Of a stretch of 64,000 bases of DNA, positions 2,968-13,565 are shown piece by piece. A model generated the notes under the pieces. It had not been told where the DNA came from. It saw nothing but the letters and a program-made list of their open reading frames with translations, and searched no databases. The translations under genes were made by a program, and so were the position numbers. The stretch covers positions 2,543,092-2,607,091 of the forward strand of contig NZ_AP019781.1 in NCBI RefSeq assembly GCF_019669965.1. Reading direction: 5' to 3'. How positions within the stretch are numbered: the first letter of the stretch is position 1; every line of letters begins with the position of its first letter. Source of the DNA: Methanoculleus chikugoensis (lineage in GTDB: Archaea; Halobacteriota; Methanomicrobia; Methanomicrobiales; Methanoculleaceae).

Positions 2968-3315
2968 TTAGAGCATCCCACACCCGGAGAGATGGTAAAG
3001 CCTCCTGACCCGCTCGGCCGCCTCCTCCGATACCGCTTCCTGGATACGGACGAGAATGGTCTCGATATCCTCTTCGGGCATGCACCCGAGGTCTTCGCGG
3101 CCGGAAAGGATCTGGTCGGTGAGGTATCCCCAGTCCTCGTCCGAGAGCCGGGCAACCCGTTCCGCAAAATCATCCTCGTCCGCTGCGATGTGGTTGGAGA
3201 CCGGGGGGAGGATCGAGTGGAACTCGTGGCCTGACTCCGGGCAGAGAATGCCGCTGTACTCGGGAGCCAGTTTTCGGAGGATAGCAAAGTCCTTCTCGTC
3301 AAGTTCGCGTGCCAT
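2968..3315 (-). CDS. Conserved hypothetical small acidic protein
   Basis: A 115-residue acidic, mostly helical protein with no membrane segment. It has two cysteines around residues 25 and 78 and a C-terminal SGCGML. No family is recognised. It lies between the tautomerase and the DUF2124-like gene on the same strand with gaps of about 50 bp, so the three may be co-transcribed. The coding call rests on uninterrupted length, strong codon-position GC bias and a plausible start; the Shine-Dalgarno site is weak. Confidence 0.7.
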   Translation of the reverse strand: MARELDEKDFAILRKLAPEYSGILCPESGHEFHSILPPVSNHIAADEDDFAERVARLSDEDWGYLTDQILSGREDLGCMPEEDIETILVRIQEAVSEEAAERVRRLYHLSGCGML

Positions 3316-3368
3316 GGTTTCGTCCGTTTATGGAGGTTCTTTCAGGAAAAAGTGTTCGACAGCAGGAA

Positions 3369-3554
3369 CTACGTCTCCGAGAGGAGTTTTCCCGCCCGGG
3401 CGATGCTCTCGGTCTTGAGTTCCTCAAAGAAGATGGTGACCACCTGTGGGTCGACGCCGAACGTCTTCGTGACCGCGGCGGTGATCTCGTCTGCGAGTAT
3501 CCGTTTCTGCTCAAGCGTCCGCCCTTCTGCCATACGAATGGTTATTACCGGCAT
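3369..3554 (-). CDS. 4-oxalocrotonate tautomerase family protein
   Basis: At 61 residues it has the family's usual length. It begins Met-Pro-Val-Ile-Thr, so that Pro becomes the N-terminal catalytic base after Met removal, and continues with the typical EQKRILADEITAAV helix and the VTIFFEEL strand. Members act as small hexameric or trimeric tautomerases, but the substrate here is unknown. A TATA-like GATAAATA (about 3583-3592 on the minus strand) lies about 30 bases upstream of the ATG. Confidence 0.9.
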   Translation of the reverse strand: MPVITIRMAEGRTLEQKRILADEITAAVTKTFGVDPQVVTIFFEELKTESIARAGKLLSET

Positions 3555-6246: not shown

Positions 6247-6382
6247 GATCGGCGAACTCACACCACCGGGGCAGGATCCGGGATGCATATGCCCCAAGGT
6301 TGTCCCAAACACTTTCGCCGGGAGGGGGCGCCCGTTCGAAGACCATCGGTCTTCTCAAACTCCGTTTTTTTGGAACATCGTT

Positions 6383-6532
6383 CTCCGGAGCGGAGTTGGA
6401 GCACCGAAGGTGCGAGCCGCGGCTGTCCACAGGACGGGAGCGTGAGAAGCCGTAGGCTTCGAGCCGCGAAAGACGCGAAGAGAAGTAATTACCGACATCA
6501 GGAACTTCGCGATCTTCGCGGCTTCGCGTGAG
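6383..6532 (-). repeat. Mosaic hairpin element, copy A
   Basis: Non-coding. Perfect mini-hairpins lie at 6383-6390 (CTCCGGAG), 6401-6413 (GCACC/GGTGC), 6425-6435 (GTCC/GGAC) and 6446-6460 (GAAGCC/GGCTTC). They are separated by short linkers that, on the minus strand, read like TCACGCTCC and AGCCGCGGCTC. The region ends in imperfect inverted copies of CCGCGAAnnnCGCGAAG (6464-6480 and 6504-6520) and then CTTCGCGTGAG. The same modules occur at 12.1-12.5 kb and 18.5 kb. The rest of 6247-6582 holds no gene. Confidence 0.75.
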
Positions 6533-9138: not shown

Positions 9139-11990
9139 CCGGAGAAGGCGGGGAGCGGAGGCTCTTTCGCTACTACCCGGAGGACTTCGGGGCGCTCCCC
9201 GTCCGGGTCGTCCACATGGATCTCGTCTTCGACGTCTACGACGGCCACACCCGGGTCGTCTCCGCTCTCACCGCCGAGACCCTTGACGCGCCGCTCTCAT
9301 CGCTCTCCCTGAACGCCCGCGACCTGGATATCCTCCGCGTGGAGTCCGCCGGATACGCCGTCACCCACACCTACGACCGGGACGCGGCGACCCTCACCGT
9401 CGCCTTCGATCCCCCCGTCCCGCCCCGGGCACAGTTCACCCTCGATACCGAGACGATCTGCCGGCCGAGCACCCACGTCCTCGAAGGCCTCTACTACGAC
9501 GGGCGATGCCCCGGCGGGCCGCCCACCCAGATCACCCAGTGCCAGCAGTGGGGGTTCCAGCGGCTGGTCCCCTGCCTCGACGACATGACCGCGAAGTGCA
9601 CCTACACGACGACGATCGTCGCGGATAATGGGTATACGGCCACCATCTCAAACGGCGACCCGGCAGGAGCCCGGATCCCCTGCGCACCCGGGCGCTCCGT
9701 GCAGAGGTACGAGAACACCAGAACCCCGATGGCGCCTTACCTCTTCTTCCTCGGGATGGGGTGCTACGACACCCACCGGCGCGAGTTCGAGTATCCCGAC
9801 GGGCGGACGTTCGCCTTCGAACTCCTCGCGAAACCCGGTTCCGACCCGGAGGAAGCGGAGCGTGCGCTTGAGATCCTCGCGGACGGGGTGATGTGGGTTC
9901 ACCTCTTCACCGGCCCGGCGCAGTACCGCGACCGCGAGACCCGGGAAGAGGTGTGGCGGCTCGTGCGGGTGCGCGACGAGGCGAAACGTTCCGGGGATCC
10001 TGGGGCGCTCGAAGAGACCAGGAAGATGCTCAAAAAACTCATCTCGACCATCACCCCGGGCTACGCCTACACGGGGGCGGTCTACCGGGAGATCGCCATG
10101 CAGAACTCCGACTTCGGCGGGATGGAGAACGTCGGGAACACGACGATCGCCGCGAACCGGATCATGCCCGGGCCCGACACCACCGACCCGGCCTTCGAGT
10201 ACCTGGTCCGGGTGAAGGTCCACGAGTACTACCACAACGAAAACGGCTCCGAGGTGACCGGGTGGAGCCCGTTCGAGATCTGGCTGAACGAGGCCGTGAC
10301 CGTCCACGTCGAGAACCAGCACCACGCCTTCTTCTTCGGCGAGGCCTACTCCCGCATCAAGACCGTGCTCGACCTCCTCGACCCCGCGGCCGGGACGCTC
10401 ACGCTCGACCGGGGAGCAGGATCGATGCCGATCGAGCCGGACGGTTTCAACGACCCGAACGACCTCATCACGGGCGTCACCTACGTGAAAGCCCCTGAGT
10501 TCGTCAGAATGATCGAGACGCTGATGGGAAAAGTTGCGTTCGCCGAAGCGCTCGGCCGCTACCACGACCGGTTCCGGCACGCGAATGCCTCGCGGGCCGA
10601 CTGGATACGCTGCATGGAGGAGGTCTCGGGGCAGGAGTTCACGGGAATGGCTGCGGTCTGGCTGAAGGAGAAGGAGTACCCGATACTCACGGTATCCCCC
10701 GCGTACGACCCGGCCGCCCGCCGGTTCACCCTCGCCTACCGCCAGAGCCGAACGCCTGCCGGCCGTCTCTGGGAGTTCCCGTTCCGGTTCGCGCTCGTCG
10801 ACGCCAGGGGCGGGGAGATCCGGGAGGCGACCGTCCGGATCGCCGACGAGGCCGGAGAGATCGTCCTCGACGGCGTCGATAGACCCGCGTTCCTCTCGCT
10901 CAACCGCGGCTACTCCTTCTATGGGAAGACGGCATACCGGCCGCCGGAGGACGAACTCTACCTCCAGGTCGAGAGGGACCCTGATATCGTCGGCCGGTTC
11001 ACCGCGTTCCTCGCGCTCGCCGACCGGGAGATGCTCCGGCTCCTCGAAGATCCGGGCGCAGCCGTCTCCGACCGGTTCGCCGACCTCTGCGCCGCACTCC
11101 TCGCCGACGACTCCCTCATGGAGGAGGCGGGCGGGCAGTTCCTGACCGTCTTCCCCTCGGTGGAGGACGAGCGGTTCGCTCACCGTTACCGGGCGCTCCA
11201 TGACGCCCGAAGAGCGATCCTTACCGCCGTCGCCGCCCGGGGCGGCGAGACCCTCCTCCGTGTTTACCGGCAGGCGGCAAAAGACACTCCCGCCGCGCCG
11301 GGCGGCCTGGAGGAAGAGGCCGCGGCAATCCGGAACCGGCAGAGGAAGAACGCCTGTCTCTCGCTCCTCGCGACCCGGGACACCCCGGAGGTTCACCAAC
11401 TCCTTCTTCGCCAGTTCCGGGAAGCGACGGCCGCAACCGACCGTCTCACCGCGTTTTCGCTGATCCTCGAGAGCAGCGCTCCGGAACGGCAGGAGATCCT
11501 CGAATCGTTTGCGGCAGAGTCGGCAAAAAGCCCCGTCGCGTGGGAATCCTTCCTCGCCGCCGTCGCCGGAAGCGACTGCGACGACCTCGTCCCCATTCTT
11601 GAGCGGATCGAGTCCTCGCCGGCCTTCGCATTCGAGCAGGCCGACCAGCAGCGGGCGCTCTATGGGCGGTTCGCGCTGAACAGGAAGCGGTCGCTCGAAA
11701 CCGAAGACGGGCGGGCCTACCTTGCAGAGGTGCTCCGGCGGCTCGCCCCGGTCAACGAGTACAGCACCGTCCGGGCTCTCGATGCGTTTGCATTCATCGA
11801 CGGGATGGAGCCCCGCCACCGGGTTCCGGCAGTCGCGGTGCTTGCAGACCTCCTCTCCAGCCTCGATCCGGGCGCGCAGCCCGCGGTCTACAACAACGCC
11901 CGCCGCTTCCTCCTCGGCGCCCCGGAGGCAGTCCGCGCCTACGAGGAGGAGCACGGGGCGATCCCGGCCCTCCGGGAACTCAATACCTGA
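9135..11990 (+). CDS. M1 family metallo-aminopeptidase (PepN-like)
   Basis: 951 residues from a TTG overlapping the preceding stop. The zinc site is HEYYH (363-367) with the third ligand Glu386 exactly 18 residues later in NEAVT, and the exopeptidase motif is GGMEN (328-332), a variant of GAMEN. An N-terminal beta domain precedes the catalytic domain, and the C-terminal half (from about 640) is a helical repeat region as in PepN. It should remove N-terminal residues from peptides in the cytoplasm. The open frame reaches back to 8889 inside the HEAT gene, but that part is out of register with real coding. No signal peptide is visible. Confidence 0.9.
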   Translation: MTGEGGERRLFRYYPEDFGALPVRVVHMDLVFDVYDGHTRVVSALTAETLDAPLSSLSLNARDLDILRVESAGYAVTHTYDRDAATLTVAFDPPVPPRAQFTLDTETICRPSTHVLEGLYYDGRCPGGPPTQITQCQQWGFQRLVPCLDDMTAKCTYTTTIVADNGYTATISNGDPAGARIPCAPGRSVQRYENTRTPMAPYLFFLGMGCYDTHRREFEYPDGRTFAFELLAKPGSDPEEAERALEILADGVMWVHLFTGPAQYRDRETREEVWRLVRVRDEAKRSGDPGALEETRKMLKKLISTITPGYAYTGAVYREIAMQNSDFGGMENVGNTTIAANRIMPGPDTTDPAFEYLVRVKVHEYYHNENGSEVTGWSPFEIWLNEAVTVHVENQHHAFFFGEAYSRIKTVLDLLDPAAGTLTLDRGAGSMPIEPDGFNDPNDLITGVTYVKAPEFVRMIETLMGKVAFAEALGRYHDRFRHANASRADWIRCMEEVSGQEFTGMAAVWLKEKEYPILTVSPAYDPAARRFTLAYRQSRTPAGRLWEFPFRFALVDARGGEIREATVRIADEAGEIVLDGVDRPAFLSLNRGYSFYGKTAYRPPEDELYLQVERDPDIVGRFTAFLALADREMLRLLEDPGAAVSDRFADLCAALLADDSLMEEAGGQFLTVFPSVEDERFAHRYRALHDARRAILTAVAARGGETLLRVYRQAAKDTPAAPGGLEEEAAAIRNRQRKNACLSLLATRDTPEVHQLLLRQFREATAATDRLTAFSLILESSAPERQEILESFAAESAKSPVAWESFLAAVAGSDCDDLVPILERIESSPAFAFEQADQQRALYGRFALNRKRSLETEDGRAYLAEVLRRLAPVNEYSTVRALDAFAFIDGMEPRHRVPAVAVLADLLSSLDPGAQPAVYNNARRFLLGAPEAVRAYEEEHGAIPALRELNT

Positions 11991-12084
11991 AACCATCTCA
12001 AAACCCTCAAGACGGGGAGGGAGAGCCGTTCGCAACGGTAGGTGCAACCCGGAAGATAGGAGCGTGTTGATACATCCCTTCGCG

Positions 12085-12474
12085 GCTTCGCGCTCTTCGC
12101 ACCTGCGGTGCTCATGCTCCGTTCCTTGCGGAACGTCCCACTTCGCGTGAGGCCGTATTGTCGCTCAGCCCCGCCATCTCACGCGAAGTGCGAGCGCAGC
12201 GAGCTTGAGCACCGTAGGTGCGAGCCGCGAAGAACGCGAAGATCGGTTGTCCGAGAGCAACTCCCCTTCGAAGCCTGATGGCTTCTCATGCTCGCTCCCC
12301 ACAGGAGGTCGCACTTCGAAGCCTGATGGCTTCTCATGCTCGCTACACTCGCACTTCACACCTAACGGTGCTCATGCTCCTGCCATTCTGGCAGTCACAC
12401 TTCACACCTAACGGTGCTCGAACTCCGGCCCTTCGGCCTGTCGCACTTCGCTGCTTCGCGTCCATCGCGTGAGC
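12085..12474 (+). repeat. Mosaic hairpin element, copy B (long array)
   Basis: A 390-bp non-coding array of short perfect hairpins: 12099-12111, 12121-12134, 12209-12221, 12270-12285, 12295-12307, 12318-12333, 12359-12370, 12380-12394, 12405-12416 and 12427-12438. The linkers alternate between CTCATGCTC and TCGCACTTC. A 31-bp direct repeat lies at 12266-12296 and 12314-12344 (period 48), and a second repeat around the CACC/GGTG hairpins has period 46. CTTCGCGTGAG at 12141-12151 is inverted at 12178-12188. The array ends with CGCTGCTTCGCGTCC and CGCGTGAGC near 12474. The whole gap 11991-12561 holds no gene. Confidence 0.85.
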
Positions 12475-12561
12475 CGGTAATGCATGGATCATCGGGAGGG
12501 GATTCGACCTCAGGAAGAGGCAGTATACAGAACCCGGCCCTCCGGGAACCCGACCCCTGAC

Positions 12562-13401
12562 CTACCCGTACCCGAGGCGCAGCCCGACGCCGGTCTCCCG
12601 GACGTTTGCTACCCGTGCAAGAGCAATCTTTGCCGCAAGGTCGGTGCAGTGGCAGGGGTGGAGGGCTGCCGGCCGCACCTCCGCGAAATAGTCGAGGATA
12701 CCCTCTATCTGCTCCGGTGGCGCATCGAGGAGATGGAACCCGCCGATGACGTCGGCGACCCGGTCCTCGTTGCAGACCTCGCGCGCCTGCTCGACAATCG
12801 AGCAGATCCCCGAGTGAGAGCAGCCGGTTACGATGACAAGCCCCTCCGCGGTCTTGCAGGCGAGCGCGGTGTCGTCGAGGACGGTGTCGTCCCGGATGCC
12901 GTCGGGGGTGTAGACGTAGCCGCATGGGGGCGCCCTCTCGAACTCGAACCGCCGCTCGATCTCGCCGAGGAAGACCAGGTTCTCAGTCAGCCAGAGGGAG
13001 GCCGGTGTGAGGAGGACATTCCCGTGCCGGAAGAGTTCCTCGACCGAGAGATGACACCCGATCTCCCCGACGCCGTTGCAACTCCGGGTGAGGAACGCAT
13101 CCGGATGGGCGATGAACGCGGGTTCGACACGTTCGCGGCCCTCGAAGATCGCCTCGGTATGGAGCCTGAGGAGGGCATCGAGGCCCCAGGTGTGATCGAG
13201 GTGGCCGTGGGAGATGACGACGTCATCGACGCGGAGGAGGTCGATCCCCATCTTTTGGGCGTTGGCGACGAAGATGCCCGAGTAGCCCGCATCGAAGAGA
13301 AACCGGGTTCCGCCGTCCTCAATGTGAATGGAGAGCCCCGGTTCTGCGAGGAAGTAGCGATCGGTGAGGGTGGCGTTATCCACGAGGACCGCGAGTTTCA
13401 T
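12562..13401 (-). CDS. MBL-fold hydrolase, RFAP-synthase-related family
   Basis: 279 residues. The metallo-beta-lactamase fold shows SHGHLDH (His65, His67, Asp69, His70), TGCSHSGI and a C-terminal HPCHC. This pattern belongs to the family annotated as 7,8-dihydropterin-6-yl-methyl-aminobenzene 5'-phosphate synthase-like, many members of which have no proven role. The ATG at 13401 is preferred over 13419 because GGAGG lies eight bases upstream. A link to methanopterin biosynthesis is family-based inference only. Confidence 0.85.
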   Translation of the reverse strand: MKLAVLVDNATLTDRYFLAEPGLSIHIEDGGTRFLFDAGYSGIFVANAQKMGIDLLRVDDVVISHGHLDHTWGLDALLRLHTEAIFEGRERVEPAFIAHPDAFLTRSCNGVGEIGCHLSVEELFRHGNVLLTPASLWLTENLVFLGEIERRFEFERAPPCGYVYTPDGIRDDTVLDDTALACKTAEGLVIVTGCSHSGICSIVEQAREVCNEDRVADVIGGFHLLDAPPEQIEGILDYFAEVRPAALHPCHCTDLAAKIALARVANVRETGVGLRLGYG

Positions 13402-13565
13402 CTCGAGCGCCTCCGGCATGTAGCGACGGAAGTGGCGCCCCGGGGCGCTGCTTCGGCCGCAAACGAGTCCATGCAGGTACTGGGGACGTCGCGGTTAAGA
13501 AAGTATCCTGCGGCCGCCGGAGAAAAGAAGTCGCTCCCCGCGAAACGCTATGGAGGAGGAATACC

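Follow-up and report, generated by a model that had tools for sequence, protein, structure and literature searches.

Several kinds of short hairpin-forming repeat have been described that resemble the sequences analysed here. Double-hairpin elements (DHE) are known from the mitochondria of Allomyces and Schizosaccharomyces, and PMC10085805, citing Paquin et al. 2000, presents them as pairs of small G+C-rich hairpins, a few tens of nucleotides long, that are mostly intergenic, optional between species and thought to be mobile, and for which an enzyme is not known. REP, BIME and REPIN sequences are short palindromic intergenic repeats that occur as pairs or mosaics in more than 100 copies (PMC3116915, PMC3733652). 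Integron attC sites and CALIN depend on shape over sequence, on a single folded strand and on a junction logic without duplication (PMC9668308). The repetitive hairpin-forming elements of sponge mitochondria proliferate and insert tandemly in spacers (PMC2800124).

Here we describe an array of small hairpins in an archaeal chromosome, that of Methanoculleus chikugoensis. The window, which is the whole stretch of DNA that was analysed, has a length of 64,000 nucleotides. A sequence-only reading of the window had reported ten short hairpins alternating with two linkers, direct repeats spaced by 48 and 46 nt and an internal inversion, and we find all of these in the sequence.

Composition of the array in the window

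The array lies in a spacer of about 570 nt between two convergent genes, which encode an M1-family aminopeptidase (9141..11990, plus strand, start approximate; Pfam PF01433 and PF17432) and a metallo-beta-lactamase-fold protein (12562..13419, minus strand; Pfam PF00753). A Bacillus atrophaeus NRRL NRS 213 record (L099) contains a relative of the archaeal metallo-beta-lactamase-fold protein with 56% identity. The best bounds of the array are 12078-12473, and within them it is a mosaic of two repeats, with six cassettes, one of them inverted, nested in a palindromic outer repeat (CTTCGCGTGAG..CTCACGCGAAG). Both strands fold with z-scores of -7.0 to -8.1 relative to shuffled DNA. As had been claimed, the array is not a CRISPR, since it lacks an unchanging repeat that alternates with evenly sized unique spacers. 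A covariance model of the cassette (R1), built from 20 units of the same genome, recovers the window array with E-values down to 4e-16.

Each cassette is about 46-50 nt long and follows the plan CTTC, hairpin A, linker 1 (TCRWRCTC), hairpin B and linker 2 (TCGYWYTTC). Across the family the A stems include GCACC/GGTGC, GAAGCC/GGCTTC and GAAACCC/GGGTTTC, and the B stems include GTTCC, TGCC, GGATG, GGCC, GGTTC, TTTCCC, CTCCCC and GGTCC with their complements. The outer repeat has the plan CTTCGCGGCTTCGCG-NTCTTCGCGTGAG-(about 26 nt)-CTCACGCGAAG-CCGCGAAGAACGCGAAG. The stems had been called unrelated. The B hairpins do differ, but the six A hairpins of the window represent just two classes, one with GCACC or ACACC and one with GAAGCC, which occurs twice in identical form.

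The left block of the outer repeat, CTTCGCGGCTTCGCGCTCTTC (12078..12098, plus strand), is free of cassettes at the orthologous locus of strain FWC-SCC3 (L077). In the window it is followed by cassette 1 (12099..12144, plus strand; R1 12094-12144, E 1.9e-15), with A hairpin GCACC-TGC-GGTGC, linker 1 TCATGCTC, B hairpin CGTTCC-TTGC-GGAACG and linker 2 TCCCACTTC. The outer palindrome, detected as an inverted repeat at 12141..12188, consists of CTTCGCGTGAG, a 26-nt loop and CTCACGCGAAG, and next to it lies the inverted cassette 2 (12189..12224, minus strand; R1 12185-12226, minus strand), which reads CTCGCACC-TAC-GGTGC-TCAAGCTC-GCTGCGCTCGCA. Cassette 3 (12270..12317, plus strand; R1 12265-12317, E 2.3e-14) has A hairpin GAAGCC-TGAT-GGCTTC, linker 1 TCATGCTC, a degenerate B hairpin GCTCCCCACAGGAGG and linker 2 TCGCACTTC. 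It shares a 31-nt repeat (D2), at a spacing of 48 nt, with cassette 4 (12318..12357, plus strand), which is listed in our unit table with the same A hairpin, GCTACAC in the place of B and linker 2 TCGCACTTC; thus cassette 4 and the inverted cassette both lack a proper B hairpin. Cassettes 5 and 6 are joined by a 46-nt repeat (D1). The former (12358..12403, plus strand; R1 E 3.8e-16) has A hairpin ACACC-TAAC-GGTGC, linker 1 TCATGCTC, B hairpin CTGCCA-TTC-TGGCAG and linker 2 TCACACTTC, and the latter (12404..12449, plus strand) has the same A hairpin with linker 1 TCGAACTC, B hairpin CGGCC-CTTC-GGCCTG and linker 2 TCGCACTTC. The right block of the outer repeat, GCTGCTTCGCGTCCATCGCGTGAG (12450..12473, plus strand), aligns with CATCTTCGCGTGAG of L077.

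One terminus sequence had been thought to mark both ends of the array as well as the inversion. The internal part of this claim stands, since CTTCGCGTGAG is found at 12141-12151 and inverted at 12178-12188, but the two ends differ: the right end carries CATCGCGTGAG, with one mismatch to CTTCGCGTGAG, and the left end opens with the outer-repeat sequence CTTCGCGGCTTCGCG at 12078. A second cassette locus is visible in the sequence of the window at 6333..6465, with one cassette on each strand (R1 E 4e-11 and 2e-8) and fragments of the outer repeat.

Copy number and distribution

A BLAST search of the genome gave at least 93 matches at about 40 loci, so absence from the rest of the genome, which would have refuted the earlier reading, does not apply. 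Among the first 150 candidates scored with R1 we count at least 148 cassettes in the 2.62-Mb genome, and the outer-repeat arm CTTCGCGTGAG has at least 113 genome copies, against 2 for a reversed control. Cassettes are present in 33 of 35 Methanoculleus genomes; those with few or none (G010, G013, G019-G023, G027, G030, G033) are mostly genomes of 1.8-2.2 Mb. Order-wide, 64 of 232 genomes match R1, with mostly weak matches outside the genus, and in a sample of the phylum 26 of 393 genomes match, only two of them beyond the order. Other genera keep the linkers and have different A stems (e.g. GAAAACC/GGTTTTC). A search of phages and plasmids for the cassette gave no match, and in viral contigs a 14-base pattern rescored with R1 gave weak, chance-like matches (best E 0.004 over 716 kb). 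Our search of the literature, mostly of freely accessible papers, found no description of these repeats in Methanoculleus, and the family, abundant as it is, is apparently undescribed.

Gaps that contain arrays are convergent in 26 of 42 cases, compared with 12 of 82 other nearby gaps (p 1e-7, with approximate gene calls). In co-directional gaps the direction of the cassettes is random (25:19). This speaks against a function at sense 3' ends, and cassette orientation lends no support to the transcript-end role that had been considered for the array.

Several related arrangements were observed elsewhere. Locus L190 (G002) has two further tandem arrays, at 1609-1953 and 3190-3404, with 7.3 copies of a 47-nt unit and 2.8 copies of a 78-nt unit, respectively. 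At L051-L054 and L061 (e.g. genome positions 1514960-1515220) cassettes lie within yet another repeat, the third (GGGTGGGG...GTAGAGACAGGGGAGGGGG ... CTCCCCGTCAGCC), and this too has the look of a palindromic element dispersed in the genome. A 1.6-Mb genome from another genus of the family (G082) has 98 R1 matches. Many of its copies are identical and several lie where contigs end, which suggests that the cassettes multiplied in recent bursts and that the assembly broke at them.

Gain, loss and tandem growth at orthologous sites

Comparison of strains reveals empty, outer-repeat-only and filled states at orthologous sites. The orthologous spacer measures only about 17 nt, with no cassettes, in M. 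sediminis (L076) and in M. chikugoensis L21-II-0 (L098), and strain FWC-SCC3 (L077) has the outer repeat without cassettes. Sites that carry cassettes in the window are intact in L077: CTCTTCGC/GTGAG at the position equivalent to cassette 1, GCGAAG/CCGCG at that of cassette 2, and CTCTTCGC/ATCTTCGCG. A single cassette is present in bin B5_bin.3 (L082), at a fourth position that differs from these three. These empty and filled sites uphold the view of the array as a non-autonomous mobile mosaic. A 31-nt direct repeat, found by repeat search, has its left copy at the end of the aminopeptidase gene (11960..11990, plus strand) and its right copy at 12530..12560 (plus strand). It brackets the composite insert as a whole, not the individual cassettes, and is present once in the empty M. 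sediminis locus. In bin DJKA123_ANT-F21_bin.24 the same site (L084, spacer after 6837) is occupied by about 345 nt of unrelated inserted sequence, which identifies the spacer as prone to insertion.

Comparisons at further loci with G003, G006 (which we take to be M. marisnigri JR1) and G007 (presumably FWC-SCC3) gave more differences of a single cassette. In one of these a 46-nt cassette interrupts a B hairpin in its loop, and G003 has the same hairpin uninterrupted. We conclude that cassettes were gained singly at CTTCGC. The evidence for movement is comparative, and gain at some sites can be mimicked by loss between direct repeats. In its flanks L098 is closer to the window than L077 is and yet it is empty, so it is probable that cassettes were gained and also precisely lost.

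Tandem growth, which had been proposed from the repeats of the window, is borne out by its 46- and 48-nt direct repeats and by G006, where 14 cassettes of 46 nt stand head to tail (L205 2996-3642) with a higher-order period of 139 nt. Some of these tandem units carry a hybrid B hairpin, CGGTCCTAGCGGAACG, with mismatched arms. The classes of A, linker 1 and B are combined with some freedom, GCACC being found with at least 11 classes of B, and the associations among them are still significant. This only partial mixing of classes, together with the covariation of the linkers described below, indicates that whole cassettes move and that hybrid hairpins are secondary. The notion of a cassette system with variable hairpins and conserved linkers is thus kept; that of constant linkers between freely exchanged hairpins is not, because the linkers themselves vary and covary.

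Junctions between cassettes and their targets

The junctions were examined in 73 isolated cassettes, with tandem contexts removed. The hexamers to the left (before A) and to the right (after B) are uncorrelated (p 0.79 for the variable triplet; 3 exact identities compared with 1.9 expected). The left hexamer resembles a target (GCTCTT, GTTCTT, GTCCTT, CCCCTT) and the right one is mostly the cassette's own GCACTT, so that the CTTCG core is the sole sequence common to both junctions. An apparent correlation of left and right, of the kind that the target site duplication of a classical transposon or MITE would produce, disappeared once tandem contexts were removed, and we rejected such duplication. 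The junctions are unlike the product of a duplication-making transposase. They fit either a join made within a core or a template switch that happened twice at one short word. Two nested insertions deviate from the exact CTTCGC rule.

Pairing of the linkers and the folding strand

When B segments are picked by their linkers alone, 81% of their positions are paired, compared with 55% when their halves are shuffled (maximum 62%). The pairing extends into the linkers. Across B, position pair 4 of linkers 1 and 2 is paired in 140 cases (104 G-C, 36 A-T) with 94 expected, and pair 5 in 86 with 57 expected, and these counts were reached in 0 of 5000 shuffles. The pairing persists under shuffling within B classes (170 compared with 134, maximum 153 of 5000; and 108 compared with 87, maximum 102). 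The same test across hairpin A found no linker pairing. Two TC dinucleotides that face each other as an internal loop are unchanged in 66/67 and 64/67 cassettes. Since the linkers covary across B, B is the tip of a longer stem that contains a TC/TC internal loop.

Read on the complement, the loop becomes GA/GA and so forms tandem G.A, which is stable in both RNA and DNA. An excess of G.U on the reader's strand was sought and not found; there is an excess of A.C instead. At pair 4 there are 26 A.C and 1 G.T, spread across 12 B classes, at B pair 1 there are 25 and 6, and at B pairs 2-5 the bias is weaker, 15:7, all counted among related and hence not independent cassettes. A.C far above G.T on one strand corresponds to G.T or G.U on its complement. 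The tandem G.A and this bias together point to the strand complementary to the reader's as the one that folds.

Proposed explanation and its alternatives

We propose that the array consists of copies of a double-hairpin DNA repeat that is mobile and non-autonomous, conserved in structure and variable in sequence, whose folded strand is recognised by shape and joined at CTTCGC; we give this reading a probability of slightly above one half. According to this model the whole unit (A, linker 1, B and linker 2 ending in CTTCG) would insert beside a CTTCGC motif. Because CTTCGC occurs in the abundant outer repeat and at every cassette end, cassettes would also land on each other and so produce arrays, and unequal crossing-over or slippage may multiply the units afterwards. 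The form that is copied or inserted would be a folded single strand, 5'-CGAAGTGCGA-B-GAGCATGA-A-CGAAG, presumably single-stranded DNA and less likely RNA, recognised by its shape with the linkers as the outer helix, and a putative host recombination or replication activity would join it at the CTTCGC core. Convergent-gene gaps may be where insertions do least harm. It is rather doubtful that these are gene-less archaeal cassettes that a putative recombinase recognises by the fold of their single strand, with its variable stem at the tip, its tandem G.A and its paired linkers, and joins at CTTCGC; such a system would follow the logic of an integron with nothing left but the recombination site.

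Candidate drivers were sought among the Methanoculleus genomes. A Y1/IS200 (RAYT) transposase was rejected as general driver in the genus, as none is found in G000-G009, this genome included, and only 2 of 25 array-rich genomes have one; it is commoner in array-poor genomes (5 of 10). A reverse transcriptase was rejected likewise, since PF00078 is confined to 3 of the 35 genomes and is absent here, and so was an integron integrase, with TIGR02249 above its cut-off in 0 of 35 genomes. The integrase search returned only Xer-like matches, also in array-poor species, and this genome has a single Xer-like recombinase (G000:C1:868909). An Rfam search found no family that matches the cassette array; its matches in the vicinity were limited to tRNA, sR3 and an L15 leader.

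The main and strong rival, which we regard as a real though tentative possibility, is that the cassettes are passive products of replication, formed by template switching and slippage, which would act from one CTTCGC to another and inside hairpins, spreading units to new places and repairing stems (quasi-palindrome correction), with no factor that recognises the cassette. The junctions, which lack a target duplication, do look as if the template had been switched twice at one 6-mer, and tandem identical units, the 139-nt higher-order repeat and hybrid hairpins, which show recombination that does not always respect the unit, are in keeping with such a process; the lack of a candidate enzyme in the Y1, reverse transcriptase and integron integrase searches and the lack of a relation to gene direction agree with it as well. 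Passive switching accounts less readily for units that recur complete and in one phase at distant, scattered loci, and repair within a hairpin, acting across a loop, would not necessarily give rise to an invariant TC/TC loop or to covariation of the linkers. The large excess of A.C over G.T also speaks against it, as does the near-absence of the family beyond one order although CTTCGC is an ordinary sequence.

The structural evidence that favours a folded strand would also suit a functional structured RNA, e.g. a stability or end structure in the 3'-UTRs of convergent genes that recombination has spread and selection has maintained. Compensatory pairs are in line with this, as are the tandem G.A of one strand, tolerance of the G.U type and the location at convergent gene ends; given the random direction relative to co-directional genes (25 and 19), the empty spacers of close relatives and the absence of an Rfam match, we consider it improbable. 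Still less credible are two explanations that invoke a dedicated enzyme. Movement of REP/BIME/REPIN-like repeats by a Y1 (RAYT) transposase of the IS200/IS605 family would explain paired small palindromes, intergenic placement and more than 100 copies, and is very unlikely with Y1 absent here and from nearly all array-rich genomes and present in half of the array-poor ones. A gene-less integron-like array, with shape-recognised sites used by a tyrosine recombinase, would explain the right junction borne by the cassette, the arrays, and a variable tip stem with paired conserved linkers on one folded strand, which recalls attC logic; it is equally improbable, as the integrase matches of the 35 genomes are only Xer-like and not confined to array-rich species, cassette genes are lacking and no attC-core-like sequence was seen by eye.

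Comparison with known systems

Methanoculleus is a major genus of methanogens in biogas and in the ocean, and its cassettes combine insertions that can be dated by comparison with an exact junction rule and measurable covariation. It therefore becomes testable how hairpin repeats without an enzyme spread and keep perfect stems while their sequence changes. The cassettes also complicate genome assembly, as many R1 matches lie at contig ends of draft genomes (e.g. G082, G032).

The cassettes lack the GTAG/CGTC tag and the RAYT of REP and REPIN sequences. Their flanks are [CT]TCG and TCR.RCTC, the palindrome itself varies, and the stem sequence is not conserved, so the likeness is confined to short palindromic intergenic repeats in pairs or mosaics and in high copy number. 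With integron attC and CALIN they share the reliance on shape, one folded strand and a junction without duplication, but they are units of 46-50 nt that carry no cassette genes, have a different core and are found without an integron integrase. By the tested features the cassette family is a member of neither the REP nor the integron families. The sponge-mitochondrial elements likewise proliferate and insert tandemly in spacers; their stems are conserved and their loops vary, whereas in Methanoculleus the stems vary (PMC2800124).

The likeness to DHE is anatomical and is drawn from published descriptions. Like DHE, the cassettes have two adjacent hairpins in each short unit and are optional at orthologous sites. 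DHE are elements of fungal mitochondria with few copies, whereas the cassettes belong to an archaeal chromosome, form long arrays, use a CTTCGC site, have linkers that pair with each other and are hosted by a second repeat. By analogy, the family would work most like mitochondrial DHE, and it appears to share its logic with shape-recognised recombination sites.
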